Positions 211 to 27,820 of a stretch of 34,505 nucleotides of DNA are shown here, in pieces (within the stretch, counting starts at the first letter, position 1; the number at the start of each line of letters is the position of its first letter). The notes below the pieces were generated by a model, which saw nothing but the letters and a program-made list of their open reading frames with translations, was not told the DNA's origin and did no database searches. Where the stretch lies: the NCBI GenBank assembly GCA_017465475.1, contig JAFTWC010000062.1:1-34505 (forward strand), in the 5' to 3' direction. The DNA is from Lachnospiraceae bacterium. Its GTDB lineage: Bacteria > Bacillota > Clostridia > Lachnospirales > Lachnospiraceae. Both the position numbers and the translations under genes were made by a program.

Positions 211-236
211 TTTTGTAATTTTTTTCATTTTTCTAT

Positions 237-263
237 TAAGTACACCTTTCCCTTTGCCGATAT
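237..263 (+). promoter_or_regulatory. Sigma-28 (FliA/SigD) promoter of flagellin
   Basis: TAAG (237-240), exactly 15 nt, then GCCGATAT (256-263) matches the sigma-28 consensus TAAA-N15-GCCGATAA almost perfectly. Transcription would start near 270, leaving a leader of about 150 nt. That leader has two GGA motifs (about 298-301 and in the Shine-Dalgarno at 405-410), the kind of element CsrA binds on flagellin messages. CsrA control is an inference. Confidence 0.92.
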
Positions 264-418
264 AATTTACAAGTGAATGAAACACAGCCATACTGAAAGG
301 ACTCAGTTATCACCCGAACGGATTCGAGGGGCATGTATTCATCGAAAAAATACAACCTATCGCAATTTAAGACATGCTCATACAGAAGAGCAAATTCAAC
401 TATCGGGAGGTAACGACT

Positions 419-2080
419 ATGGCAATGATCGTTCAACACAACATGCAGGCAATGAATGCCAATCGTATGCTGGGTATTGTTTCTAACCAGCAGGCAAAAT
501 CTACAGAGAAACTTTCTTCGGGCTATCGCATCAACCGTGCCGCTGATGATGCAGCAGGCTTAGCAATTTCCGAAAAGATGCGTTCCCAGATTCGCGGCCT
601 CACGCAGGCTTCCACCAATGCAGAAGACGGTATTTCCATGATTCAGACCGCAGAAGGTGCATTAAACGAATCCCACAGCATTTTACAAAGAATGCGTCAG
701 CTGGCTGTACAGGCTGCCAACGGCACCGAAACAGACAACGACCGTGATAATATTCAGGATGAAATCGAGCAGTTGCAGGATGAGCTTGATCGTATCGCAG
801 AAACCACCGAGTTCAACACCATGAAACTTCTCGACGGCACTTTCGACGGTACCAATACCGCTACTACCAGTGCAGGTCCGAAGTATGGTGACTATAACGG
901 TACTTTAGGTGCTTTCATTACATCCGATGTGGTTGGTGTACAAATTCAGACCAATACCAGTGCTACCGTAGGTGGCGAATCTGCTATTTGGGACAGCACC
1001 GGTAAGATTTTAACTATTAGTCTTGCTGATAACAAGACCTATACCCAGGCTGACATTGACGGTTTGATTAAAAATGCAAAGCAGGAAGACTTTTCTGCTC
1101 AGAATACTCCGGCAAATGTGACCATGAAACTGGCCACCGGCGTTTATACCGCTACTGCAAACTCTGCAGCAACCTCTGCAGGTACTGTAGCCGGTGCAAA
1201 AGCAAGCGGTTCCAGCACCATTACCGGAAGCAGCTTTGTAGGTGCCAATACCATTGATATTACTTCCAATAAATACGGTGCTGACTACAACATCGACATT
1301 AAATTCCTGTTCGATGCCGATGCAGGAGAAGAAGAAGTAGAGCTTTCCACTTCCCCTGTTTACAACATGGGGGCTACCAGCATTGCAGGATCCGGTACCT
1401 CTGCACCGGGTGTTATGACCACAAATGCCGGCTATGAAGTACACTTACAGTCCGGTAAAGAATACACCGCTGAAGATATCGAAGATTTATTGGCAACCAT
1501 CGGTCTTAATGTAGACGTAGAATTAAGCGGAACCGCTGCTCCGGGTACCGATGAGCCTAACACCCTCTTTGTTACGGATTCCAATGTCACCACCACAGTA
1601 GAGCTTGATGGAGGTACCGGTCTCGGTGATGACGATGCCTTCCTGACCCAGAACAATTATGACAGTATTGCTTCCGCAGGAGGCATGACCTTACAAGTAG
1701 GTGCAAACGAAGGACAGACCATGACCTTTAACATCGGCGACATGAGTGCCGCAGCACTGGGTGTCAGCGGTAACAATGTCCGTGTAGATGAACAGGATCG
1801 TGCATCTGCTGCTATCACCGTAATCGACGCCGCTATCGAAAAAGTTTCCAAGCAGCGTTCCACTCTCGGTGCAGTACAGAATCGTTTGGAGCACACCATT
1901 GCAAACCTGGATACTTCCGCAGAGAACTTACAACAGGCAGAATCCAGAATCCGCGATGTGGACATGGCAGCAGAGATGGTGGAATACAGCAAGTACAACA
2001 TTCTCTCTCAGGCTTCCCAGTCCATGCTGGCGCAGGCAAATCAGTCCACACAGGGTGTTCTTTCCCTCTTACAGGGCTAA
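419..2080 (+). CDS. Flagellin, long variable domain
   Basis: Main filament subunit, exported through the flagellar type III apparatus. The start at 419 is chosen because GGGAGG sits 9 nt upstream and the protein then begins [16 protein letters not shown], the classic flagellin N-terminus; an in-frame ATG at 374 is rejected. The product is 553 aa. D0/D1 N-terminal helices span about 1-140 ([23 protein letters not shown], cited here only in part, residues near 35-57). The C-terminal D1/D0 helices span about 480-553, ending SLLQG. Residues about 145-475 are a Thr/Ser/Gly/Ala-rich variable region that makes it larger than common 270-400 aa flagellins. It is alone, with a sigma-28 promoter and its own terminator. 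The segment [11 protein letters not shown] corresponds to the D1 helix seen by TLR5 in other flagellins. Confidence 0.97.
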
Positions 2081-2333: not shown

Positions 2334-4424
2334 ATGGAGTATAATGAAGAATACTTTAAGGCACGGGCCAATAAAGGAGCATGCACTCTTTGGCTTATTA
2401 TGAATCTTGTCTTTACAGCTCTCTACATATTAGAGTTGATAAAGGGTGGCAGAACCCCCCTGTATTTGGCAGTCTTTTTATGCATCTGCTGGATTCCGTT
2501 TTTTATCGGTCTTTTGGTAATGAAGCTGAAAGGCGCCAGCACCTGGGTCTATCGCGAGATTATTGCAGTAGGTTACGGCGTATTTTATTTCTTTGTTCTT
2601 ATGACCACAAACACCAATGTAACTTACGGCTATATTTTCCCGATTGCCAGCATGTTAATCTTATATAAAAACCGTGCTTTGCTCGTTCGATGCGGTATTG
2701 CAAATGTTCTGGTTATTCTGTCTTATTTATTAAAGATACATTTGACCACCGGATTTGATGCACACTCCGTTACGGACGCGGAAATCCAGATTGGCGTAAT
2801 TATATTCTGTTATCTTGCCTATGTCCTTGCCATCAACCATATCAGCAAATCCGACGGTGCCTTGCTGAATTCGGTACAGGCAAATTTGGACCGGGTCATT
2901 CTTACAATCCAACAAGTAAAAAGTGCCAGCCACTCCATCGTGGACGGAGTTACTGTTGTAAACGAGCTTTCCGATGAAAATAAAGAAAGTGCTGATATCG
3001 TTGTAAACAATATGGAACAGTTAACCATGAACAACGGAATTCTGCACGATCGGGCCGACTCTTCATTAGATATGACCCGCCAGATTAACCTCCAGGTAGA
3101 AAATGTAGTTGCTATGGTACAGGATATGGTTCGTTTAGTAGATGAATCGGTAAATGATTCCCGTACCAGTTCCGCACAATTAGCCGATGTAGTAGCTTCT
3201 ACCAACGAAATGGCACAACTCTCCAAGGAAGTTGATACTATCTTAAAAGAATTCCGCACCGAATTTAATATGGTAAAAGCCGAAACCGGCACCATTGAAA
3301 AAATATCCGGTCAAACCAACCTTCTGGCCTTAAATGCCTCTATCGAGGCCGCAAGAGCCGGTGAATCCGGCAAAGGCTTTGCGGTGGTTGCGGATGAAAT
3401 CCGGGATTTAAGTACCGGAACAAAAAACTCTTCCACCAGCATTATGAGTGCTCTTGCTAATTTAGAAGTAACTGCGGACCGTATGACCGATTCTATTACC
3501 AGAACCTTAGAGTTGATTCAAACCACACTTGAAAAAATTGCTCAGGTGGACACCAGCGTGGCAAGAATCGCAACAGATGCCGCAAAACTGGGAAGCAATG
3601 TTCAGGTCATTGATTCGGCCATGCAGGAAGTAGAAAGTTCCAACCGTAACATGGTAGACAACATGAACCAGATTTGCGATGTTATGGATTCCATGACAGC
3701 AAGTATTACCCAAGCTGACGAAAGTACCCGTGTTATGCGCAGCAAATATGCCGAAACTACCGCAAACGTTACCACAATCAGTTCCATCGTAGGACAATTA
3801 ATCGAAGAATTGGGCGACGGTGGCTTTATGGGTACGGACGATGTCAAGCCGGGGATGTATCTCACCTTAGAGGAAGTACAGGGAAATGAAACAAAAGAAT
3901 ACAGCGAACAAGTAGTAAAGGTAAATGAGAATCGTATTACCGTGAAGCATCTTCGTGGTACCCTCAATGTTTCAAAATCTTCCGCTTATCACGTAACCAT
4001 CGTGGTTGACAACGGTATTTATCAGTGGAAGAACATTAAGGTAACACAAGAAAAAGACGGTACTCACACCTTAACCGTTTCCGGCAATCCAAAGGTATTT
4101 AACCGTAGAAAATATCGTCGCATGCCACTTTCTAACTCATGTTCTCTTTACCTGGACGGTATGGATCACCCAATCATCGGCAGAATGATAAACATCAGCG
4201 GTGGCGGCTTTGCTTTCTCCTCTACGTCCAAAGAGTTACAAAACGCAAAGGAAAAGCAACTAAGACTAATCATAGATGATTTTGATGTGTTACAGGAAAA
4301 GGCAGTAGAAGGCTCCATCATTCGGGTTACCGACAATAACGGTACTTATATTGTAGGCTGCCGTATGTTAGCCGACAACAAACTCATAAATGATTATGTG
4401 GAACGTAATCACCGAGCATCCTAG
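2334..4424 (+). CDS. Chemoreceptor (MCP) with C-terminal YcgR/PilZ module
   Basis: Membrane chemotaxis receptor, 696 aa, that should feed CheA/CheW and also bind cyclic di-GMP. About six hydrophobic segments fill residues 15-175, with no large extracellular ligand domain. A coiled-coil signalling domain spans about 190-500; its hairpin tip is recognisable ([20 protein letters not shown], about 323-342). Residues about 505-585 ([12 protein letters not shown] onward) resemble the YcgR-N/PilZN fold. A PilZ domain follows with an RRKYRR box (591-596; RxxxR) and NISGGG (620-625; [D/N]xSxxG), the residues that hold c-di-GMP. AGGAGG at 2322-2327 sets the start. No sigma-28 promoter is visible. Receptors usually end after the signalling helices, so the fused c-di-GMP module is the unusual part. 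Confidence 0.93.
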
Positions 4425-25434: not shown

Positions 25435-27528
25435 CTACTCTTCTTCGCTTTGCTCCTCTTGTTCTTCTTCCTGTTCTTTGGAATTCTCTATTTCTTTAAA
25501 TAAGTCCTCCCAGGCAGCTTTCATCTCCTCATAATATTCCTCATCCCCGAATTCCTCCAGCATTTCCTCGAAGAATCCCTCTTTGAACGCTTTAAAAAAT
25601 TCTTCATCTTCTGCCGCCAGCTCCAGCATGAGGTAAAATACATATTCCCACTCGTCCTCCGGCATGTTGTCAAAGGTATCCTCATCCCAGCTGTTCATCC
25701 AATCTTCCACTTCTCTGGTATAAAGAATGAATTCATGTTCTTCCAGCTCGTAGGCCTTATCTGCAATCTCCCATGCCAGATAGTCCAAAAATGCAATGTA
25801 ATCTTCTGCAGTCTCTACTTCACTTGCAACATCACAATAATCCGCAATCTCCGTGTCAAACATGCCCTTCTTTTCCACCACGTTAACACGAATCTTTGCT
25901 TTCTTTCCGCTTCCGTCCTGCGCCTCTACCGTAATAATGGCTGACCCGGTTCGCAGTCCCTTTATTTTTCCGTATTCGGACACGGATACTATATGCGGTT
26001 TGGAAGATTTATACGACAGGGACTGATCCGTAGCCATATGCGGAGTAATCTCCGGATCCAAGGAATAACTTCTTCCCAAACGCAGGTTAATCTCATCCTC
26101 TTCGAACTGAATGGATTTTACATAAATGCGCGGCGTACAATCCGCAATAATATAGGTACCCGGCTGGAACATTTTGAACTCATAGGTTCCGTCGTTTAAA
26201 AACTCGCCGTTCATCTGGGCCATAATGGTTTTCTTGTTCGGGGTATAGAACACACCAAACATTTCCTTATCGATTCCATCCGGCACGGTTACCTTCATAG
26301 TCATCGGCAGATAGGAATCCAGTTCCGGTCCGTCAAAAATCACTTCGAAAGCCATATATTTATCGGACTTTACCGAGCGACGCATGGCCTTTTCCACGCT
26401 CTGTATGCTTACCTTTTCGATTCGCACTCCCTTCGGGTCCGCCTTCCCGCCTACCGCCAGTTTGATTTCGGATGTCAGGCCGTTATCCCGAATCACCTTA
26501 TATGCACTATTTTCATAGTCGATAATCTCTGCTTCTACACCGCGTACGGTAATATGGGCAGTGGCTTTGTCGCAGAATACGGTAATCAGGTTATCTCCAA
26601 TCTTATAAATCACGGAACCGGACAGACTGAAGCCGGTCACTGTATCTTTACTTCCGTCATTAAAGGTCGCCGTTACTTTAATATCTTCTTTCGCCACTGA
26701 TTTTCCTACCACCACCGGCAAGCCCGTGTACTCCGCTTCAATGCTCACTACCGTCTTTGCCAGTCCTGTCACGGACACTTCCTGGGATAAGCCTCCGAAG
26801 GACACTACCATCGTATTTTTCCCTTCCCGTTGTACGATAGACGGGGACAGTTCAAACGAAGTAACTTCCTCCATTGTGCCGTCGTTATAAAGCACACTGA
26901 CATAAAAATCTTCCCGTTTTGGTGTATTTCCCACAATTACCGGAGAACCGCTGTACATTGCATATAAACTCTCCGGCTTTTTCTCTTTCTTACCTTCCAC
27001 AACAAATGTAACGCTTACATCATCATAAACAACCTTAAATTCATTTTTCCCGAGATTTGCTACCGTTGTATGAGACAGCGTATAGTCCAGTACTTTTTCT
27101 ACCGACCCGTCCGTATAATATGCCGTAACGGTGATTTTATCCCGCACCAGCTGCTCTCCTATGGTTGCACTGGTTGTTTCATAGTAGGCATCAATAAACA
27201 TCGCCTTTTTTCCCATTACGGTAAAGGAAGATTTGATTCCCTCACTATATATTTCGATTTCATTCATACCATCCTTGTTCACCACATAGGTAGACAAAGA
27301 AAAATCTTTTAACTTCTCATAGCTACCGTCCGAATACATGCCCATAACGGTCAACTTATCCAGTTTTATGGACTCACCTACCCGAAGGGTATCTCCGGTA
27401 TATACCGCTGTAATATCCGAAAGGCGCTTCGGTGCCGCCTGCGCCGCTTTTCCCGGAACTGTCAATAACACCGTTGCTACTATTATTAAAAATGCAAAAA
27501 AACGGATTCTTTTTTTCATTTTATTCAT
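25435..27528 (-). CDS. Secreted Ig-like (Big) domain surface protein, acidic tail
   Basis: Exported 697-aa protein; start 27528 follows AGGAGGTG at good spacing. Signal peptide about 1-31 (ends AAQAA). Four tandem Ig-like modules (about 36-330) share a pattern: a [YF]TG/YSG start, V[VR]G, a KxDxxVTA strand, a YNDGS/FNDGS turn and a closing V.G strand. A beta-rich segment (about 335-470) follows, then a Big_2 domain (about 475-560, SLDPEITPHMATDQSLSYKS). The last about 125 residues are helical and very acidic (Glu/Asp/Trp/Tyr-rich, ending EEQEEQSEEE). No LPxTG, TM or lipobox. A sigma-28-type promoter at 27565-27591 suggests co-expression with flagella. Function unknown; adhesin or filament-associated roles are possible. 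Confidence 0.88.
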   Translation of the reverse strand: MNKMKKRIRFFAFLIIVATVLLTVPGKAAQAAPKRLSDITAVYTGDTLRVGESIKLDKLTVMGMYSDGSYEKLKDFSLSTYVVNKDGMNEIEIYSEGIKSSFTVMGKKAMFIDAYYETTSATIGEQLVRDKITVTAYYTDGSVEKVLDYTLSHTTVANLGKNEFKVVYDDVSVTFVVEGKKEKKPESLYAMYSGSPVIVGNTPKREDFYVSVLYNDGTMEEVTSFELSPSIVQREGKNTMVVSFGGLSQEVSVTGLAKTVVSIEAEYTGLPVVVGKSVAKEDIKVTATFNDGSKDTVTGFSLSGSVIYKIGDNLITVFCDKATAHITVRGVEAEIIDYENSAYKVIRDNGLTSEIKLAVGGKADPKGVRIEKVSIQSVEKAMRRSVKSDKYMAFEVIFDGPELDSYLPMTMKVTVPDGIDKEMFGVFYTPNKKTIMAQMNGEFLNDGTYEFKMFQPGTYIIADCTPRIYVKSIQFEEDEINLRLGRSYSLDPEITPHMATDQSLSYKSSKPHIVSVSEYGKIKGLRTGSAIITVEAQDGSGKKAKIRVNVVEKKGMFDTEIADYCDVASEVETAEDYIAFLDYLAWEIADKAYELEEHEFILYTREVEDWMNSWDEDTFDNMPEDEWEYVFYLMLELAAEDEEFFKAFKEGFFEEMLEEFGDEEYYEEMKAAWEDLFKEIENSKEQEEEQEEQSEEE

Positions 27529-27564: not shown

Positions 27565-27591
27565 ATATCGGACAGAGTTTTGGGAAACTTA
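27565..27591 (-). promoter_or_regulatory. Sigma-28-type promoter of Ig-like surface protein
   Basis: The minus strand reads TAAG (27591-27588), exactly 15 nt, TCCGATAT (27572-27565). The flagellin promoter here is TAAG-N15-GCCGATAT, so only one base differs. The start site would be near 27558, about 30 nt before the ATG. No good sigma-A pair is seen in this gap. Confidence 0.78.
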
Positions 27592-27631
27592 ACAGTAAAA
27601 TTTTTTTACAGGAAATTGCGTAATTTTCTGT

Positions 27632-27673
27632 AAAGTAAAAAAGCGAAACCGTCCGTTTCCGAACAGTTCCGCT
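27632..27673 (-). terminator. Terminator with GAAA tetraloop
   Basis: On the minus strand AGCGGAACTGTTCG and CGGACGGTTTCGCT form a 14-bp stem (three G-U pairs) capped by GAAA, followed by six T's. It lies 190 bp after the M23 stop codon, so the M23 transcript has a long 3' region. Confidence 0.9.
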
Positions 27674-27682
27674 CATCTATAC

Positions 27683-27820
27683 TCAAGCAGTCAGCAAACC
27701 TTGTACCTTACCATGCCCTTGCAACATATTTCCAGTAGAAAATACCGACTGCATATTTTCATAAATATGTAACGCAGGTCTGCCGGGAACAGCCGGATTG
27801 CCGTTCCCCGTATACTTTAA
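27683..27820 (-). other. Unassigned 45-codon open frame before terminator
   Basis: Between the M23 gene and its terminator the minus strand has an open frame from an ATT at 27820 to TGA at 27685-27683. The first ATG is at 27754 (MQSVFSTGNMLQGHGKVQGL, 23 aa in all). No ribosome-binding site precedes either. The composition looks protein-like, so it may be a gene remnant, a very small gene or part of a structured 3' UTR (GGGAAC/GTTCCC and CATATTT/AAATATG pairs are present). No family is recognised. Confidence 0.3.

Follow-up and report, generated by a model that had tools for sequence, protein, structure and literature searches.

The Ig-rod gene and its upstream region

The window, by which we mean the whole 34,505-nt stretch of DNA that was analysed, carries on its minus strand a gene for a 697-aa Ig-rod protein (25435..27528). 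A leader is followed by four Big_3-like repeats (about residues 36-331, placed from the repeats and a predicted model), a conserved domain that weakly resembles ZU5 (about 333-469), a Big_2 domain (470-545) and a helical, acidic tail (about 556-697). The whole-protein Pfam score for Big_2 (PF02368) is 40.8 bits against a gathering score of 22.8, with one stretch passing alone, and that for Big_3 (PF07523) is 32.3 bits against 21.2, with no single stretch passing; NCBIfam gave no match. Because both families exceed their whole-protein cut-offs and orthologues with 51-60% identity were found in all nine other genomes of the genus, we regard the open reading frame as a real gene. The N-terminus, judged by eye, is a hydrophobic Sec-type leader with an AQA|AP-like site, and the protein looks Sec-secreted, a route that we infer. 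The description of the product as a multi-Ig secreted protein in the initial annotation therefore fits the sequence.

The predicted structure consists of four similar beta domains, a different fifth domain, the Big_2 domain and the helical tail; its mean pLDDT of 78 and pTM of 0.32 make the relative placement of the domains unreliable. The model suggests a beads-on-a-string rod, which, together with scores above the curated cut-offs, likens the protein to Ig-like surface proteins of the Big_2 and Big_3 families. Folded alone, the fifth domain reached a pLDDT of 89 and weakly resembled ZU5-type folds. S-layer proteins were found among the Foldseek matches of the rod, alongside many other Ig rods. 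The helical tail occurs in five of the ten genus members, the window's protein included. A Pfam scan with E values up to 0.01 found no flagellin, hook, cap or rod domain; neither the Pfam scan nor inspection by eye found LPXTG, SLH or wall-binding repeats, and no ligand-binding motif was found. In one partial homologue (G143) the C-terminal end looks, by eye, like wall-binding repeats.

Upstream of the gene lies a sigma-28 type promoter, TTAAG-N15-TCCGATAT, identified by pattern match at 27565..27592 on the minus strand and kept across the genus, with its -35 box TTAAG at 27592-27588 and its -10 box TCCGATAT at 27572-27565. The two boxes agree with the TAA(A/G)-like -35 and CCGATA(T/A) -10 elements of sigma-28 (FliA/SigD) promoters and are spaced as is usual for them. 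The site noted previously at 27565..27591 is thus real, and its end coordinate was one base short. The -10 box ends 36 nt before the ATG (27528), in place of the approximately 30 nt first claimed. The reference for comparison is the sigma-28 type flagellin promoter TTAAG-N15-GCCGATAT at 236..263 (+), ahead of a gene with Flagellin_N and Flagellin_C domains (374..2080, +; probable start at ATG 419, by eye). Both boxes and the spacing are common to the two sites, the sole difference being G/T preceding CCGATAT, so the claim of a one-base difference at equal spacing was accurate; the spacer sequences are unrelated. The pattern TTAAG-N15-NCCGATAT has exactly two matches in the window, at 236-263 (+) and 27565-27592 (-), and none in 100 dinucleotide shuffles of it; CCGATAT alone occurs 10 times. 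A chemoreceptor-like protein with an MCP signalling domain and a PilZ domain (Pfam) is encoded 3' of the flagellin gene (2334-4424, +).

Just upstream of the Ig promoter is an intrinsic terminator with a 15-pair stem and a T run (27641..27674, -), and no sigma-70-like site was found between it and the Ig ATG. The position of the terminator indicates that the Ig gene is isolated.

Distribution of the motif and of Ig-rod homologues

Promoter sequence is conserved among the ten Ig genes of the genus. The initial annotation had tied its reading to conservation upstream of orthologues, and the scan bore this out: the CGATATA core is invariant in 10/10 genes, as is a TATG a short way 3' of it, and the Shine-Dalgarno region aligned in 9/10, with divergence of the spacer and flanks. 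The -10 box starts 41-43 nt ahead of the ATG in nine genes and 70 nt ahead of it in G008. Exact matches to TTAAG-N16-CCGATAT precede six of the ten genes, and the other four have altered boxes (TAATT; TTATG; TAATG; TTAAC with TCGATAT).

A profile search of 397 genomes of the family, with the best three candidates scored per genome, gave ten homologues outside the genus that cover at least 430 of the 554 profile positions (G048, G401, G334, G357, G245, G173, G219, G288, G331 and G180). The match stops before the Big_2 domain in five of them (G048, G173, G219, G288 and G180). Contig ends truncate the homologues of G401 and G245; the latter, which has no upstream sequence, was left out, giving nine testable long homologues. 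Both boxes are present in six of the nine: G048, G401, G331, G180, G334 (with TAAT) and G173 (with ACGATAA). G357 has a -10 box only, and neither box was found upstream of the Ig gene in G219 or G288. The G288 gene lies in an apparent operon, 3' of a gene that looks by eye like mgsA. In G219 the homologue (L139:7481-9837, -) overlaps the preceding gene, which by eye encodes another secreted, Big_2-like protein, of 302 aa; the arrangement resembles an operon over which the two Ig parts have been divided. Among nine partial homologues, a sigma-28-like site was present in two (G318 and G143) and none was seen in five; the remaining two had too little upstream sequence.

The motif was also followed through the genomes themselves. 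TWAAG-N16-CCGATAT has six matches in the window's own genome versus two for a reversed-pattern control; one match each lies upstream of two flagellin genes (C32 and C65), FlgM (C76) and the Ig gene, one (C52) falls within a long ORF and for one (C33) no suitable gene follows. Across the ten genus genomes, TTAAG-N16-CCGATAT has 51 matches versus one for the control. We inspected 30 of these 51 loci, the window's own Ig site (L002) being left out of the re-inspection; Pfam was run on one downstream gene per named kind, and the others were assigned by eye. The downstream genes were flgM (6), an unnamed 235-aa protein (6), flagellin (4) and the Ig gene (4), with one case each of an unnamed 395-aa protein, a DUF6033 protein, a penicillin-binding protein and a nucleotidyltransferase. 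Three further matches represent one conserved stretch within coding sequence and three lack a plausible gene start within reach; some matches of the stringent motif are not promoters. Neither the 235-aa nor the 395-aa protein matched a Pfam family. The 235-aa protein (MNTNQILSATN..., L045:677-1381, -), 3' of the stringent motif in 6/30 loci, is probably the product of a flagellar-regulon gene. One match in the window's genome (L004:1501-1528, +) falls inside a long ORF, some 1 kb ahead of a flagellin gene; its spacer is near-unchanged, it recurs by position in G001, and several other genus genomes have a similar match. This intra-ORF motif may owe its conservation to its coding role or to an internal promoter.

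A scoring matrix was trained on 17 sites selected by the stringent pattern, located before flagellin (5, including that of the window), flgM (6) and the 235-aa gene (6), and none before an Ig gene. Among 182 ORFs of at least 120 aa in the fetched regions, 16 scored at least 12: 11 Ig-rod orthologues, three copies of a second Ig protein and two flagellins. The best ORF below 12 is unrelated and scored 8.7. Orthologues such as those of G007 and G009 are absent from the 16, probably because the longest ORF was chosen automatically, which shifts the start. With starts set by hand, the ten genus Ig genes scored from 12.9 to 34.7, and the nine homologues outside the genus scored 16.0, 12.8, 12.5, 12.0, 7.9, 2.2, 1.0, -6.0 and -11.3, the low values including the variant-box homologues of G334 (7.9) and G173 (1.0). 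An additional, partial homologue in G048 (L179) scored -5.5. At 14 loci encoding other Ig proteins, 13 scores were 0.1 or less and one was 8.2.

The second Ig protein, which also looks secreted, is encoded on another contig of the window's genome (L134:2820-6605, +). It has about 1260 aa and ten Big_2 stretches. A CCGATATA-type sigma-28-like site precedes it in all nine genus genomes examined; G005 gave no match to the protein. The site scored lowest (-1.3) in the window's genome, which has a poor -35 box, and highest (29.3) in G008, so that sigma-28 control is less well supported than for the first protein.

Probable regulon membership and possible role of the protein

The regulators that such a promoter presupposes are encoded. 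FliA was over the cut-off in all ten genus genomes, FlgM in the window's genome lies 3' of the same motif, and a gene that we take to be FlaG-like lies 3' of a relaxed form of it. Flagellin was found in 213 of the 397 family genomes. Thirteen of the 397 carried a homologue that reached E 1e-60 or better (the ten outside the genus, two from the genus itself and G291, a partial match), all 13 with flagellin; by number and genome labels, the two counts refer to the same sample of 397. Fisher's test of 13/13 against 213/397 gives P = 0.0003, for a threshold set afterwards and uncorrected for phylogeny. When the genus itself is dropped and G048 and G401, which belong to one genus, are counted once, ten genomes remain and P = 0.002, with the same after-the-fact threshold and again uncorrected for phylogeny.

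The promoter, its conservation, the form it shares with flagellar genes, the domain make-up of the protein and its co-occurrence with flagellin are observed by computation. Promoter conservation, the specificity of the motif, the presence of FliA and FlgM and the co-occurrence with flagellin make membership of the Ig gene in the sigma-28 regulon, as originally proposed from the sequence, well supported. The filament-associated or motility-phase adhesin that had also been proposed is a possible product, and no computed result places it on the filament. At E 1e-60 or better, with the best three candidates scored per genome, 200 of the 213 flagellated genomes have no match; because of this, the Sec-type leader and the lack of a flagellar Pfam domain, the protein looks accessory. 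Sequence alone could hardly make the regulon claim stronger, and a secreted multi-Ig product fits; a physical association with the filament is a possibility.

Completion of the hook frees FliA from FlgM. If the Ig gene follows this schedule, RNA polymerase with the released sigma-28 would transcribe it from 27565-27592, alongside flagellin, flgM and the flaG-like gene. The product would be exported by the Sec route, not by the flagellar export apparatus, and would form a flexible rod of Ig domains at the cell surface or be released from it, where it may serve as an accessory factor; a role as adhesin or envelope factor, directed at mucus, food particles or other cells, would be the most likely. 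Dependence on FliA, timing, secretion route, location and function are here predicted roles. Since the gene appears to share its regulator with the flagellar filament, the protein is probably made only in swimming cells. We hold it likely, with some room for doubt, that this is a late gene of the sigma-28 regulon and that its product is an accessory, Sec-route rod of swimming cells, on the surface or released.

The same regulator would equally serve a physical part of the flagellum, such as a coat of the filament or a lining of its passage through the wall, made together with flagellin. Such a part would account for the presence of flagellin in all 13 genomes with a strong homologue and would suit an Ig rod that counts S-layer proteins among its many Foldseek matches to Ig rods. 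It is harder to reconcile with the 200 of 213 flagellated genomes that lack a match at E 1e-60 (best three candidates per genome), with a leader that by eye is of Sec type, with the lack of any flagellar Pfam family and with the position of the gene near tRNA-Leu in 7/8 regions outside the genus; we consider it rather improbable, and expect an accessory surface protein sooner than a component that the filament requires. A related idea is that both secreted Ig-rod proteins, timed by sigma-28, partner the flagellum outside the cell and form, for instance, a filament coat or wall bushing. In our estimate it has a slim chance of being correct; we know of no accessory layer described so far for Gram-positive flagella. 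Ig rods on or beside filaments, if real, would matter for the contact of such flagellates with mucus and host.

It is also unlikely, in our judgement, that the protein is needed in other states, with sigma-28 one of several controls and the link to motility incidental. The G288 gene, in its apparent operon with the mgsA-like gene and without a sigma-28 site, and the G219 gene, 3' of another Big_2-like protein and without a clear site, point that way; against this, the terminator just upstream in the window, the lack of a sigma-70-like site before the ATG and the sigma-28 core kept in 10/10 genus genomes can be set. That the motif is a chance match, or the site of another sigma factor, is very improbable. 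CCGATAT is common enough in the window, and stringent matches do fall within coding sequence, but the full pattern is missing from all 100 shuffles, outnumbers its control 51 to 1 in ten genomes and leaves a footprint across the orthologues, while 13 of the 14 other-Ig loci score 0.1 or less (the exception scoring 8.2).

By analogy, C. difficile SigD-dependent proteins and the Campylobacter Feds are precedents for surface proteins under sigma-28 control; some Feds are exported through the flagellum. Like the Ig gene as we read it, the Feds belong to the flagellar sigma-28 regulon and are linked to colonisation, not to assembly (PMC6196472, in the part available); by description they are different proteins, and the leader of the Ig-rod protein points to Sec export. 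The C. difficile surface proteins CbpA, which is described as surface-exposed, and CD0514 have lower expression in a sigD mutant, and the available part of that paper documents the sigma-28 type motif for B. subtilis and for C. difficile SigD, with promoters of the TAAA-N-CCGATAA type in the latter (PMC3865298). The likeness drawn here is one of description. In the available part of Table 3 of that paper, cbpA and CD0514 are not listed among the SigD-consensus genes (PMC3865298). The Ig gene, from an uncultured Lachnospiraceae, has its own conserved promoter. A motif of this type is also found in the flagellin promoters of Roseburia and Eubacterium, taaa-16-ccgatat, which were assigned to sigma-28; that analysis, in the part available, concerns flagellin genes, and the main text nowhere uses the term 'Ig-like' (PMC3720852).

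The likely output of FliA in motile gut Lachnospiraceae would thus comprise the filament genes and one, probably two, secreted Ig-rod proteins. An unnamed protein family gains a clear condition of expression, and therefore a direct route to its function.

A conserved non-coding element and tRNA neighbours

Between an M23 peptidase gene and the Ig gene lies a conserved non-coding element (27674..27778, -) of 105 nt, present in all ten genus genomes with a mean column identity of 89%. It is predicted to form a multi-stem fold, followed by the terminator, whose stem varies in sequence, and inspection by eye suggests a possible pseudoknot (GCAGTCGG/CCGACTGC). The element has no match in Rfam, and a covariance model run against 150 family genomes matched only the two among them that belong to the genus, with strict filters that lose weak matches. 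On this sequence evidence it is a candidate for a new small structured RNA of the genus.

Neither the window nor two genus regions yielded a tRNA-Leu gene. Beyond the genus, such genes (AAG and/or CAG) lie near the Ig gene in 7/8 regions of 11-14 kb (L139-L144 and L146), and in G173 and G288 the Ig gene sits between the AAG and CAG tRNA-Leu genes.
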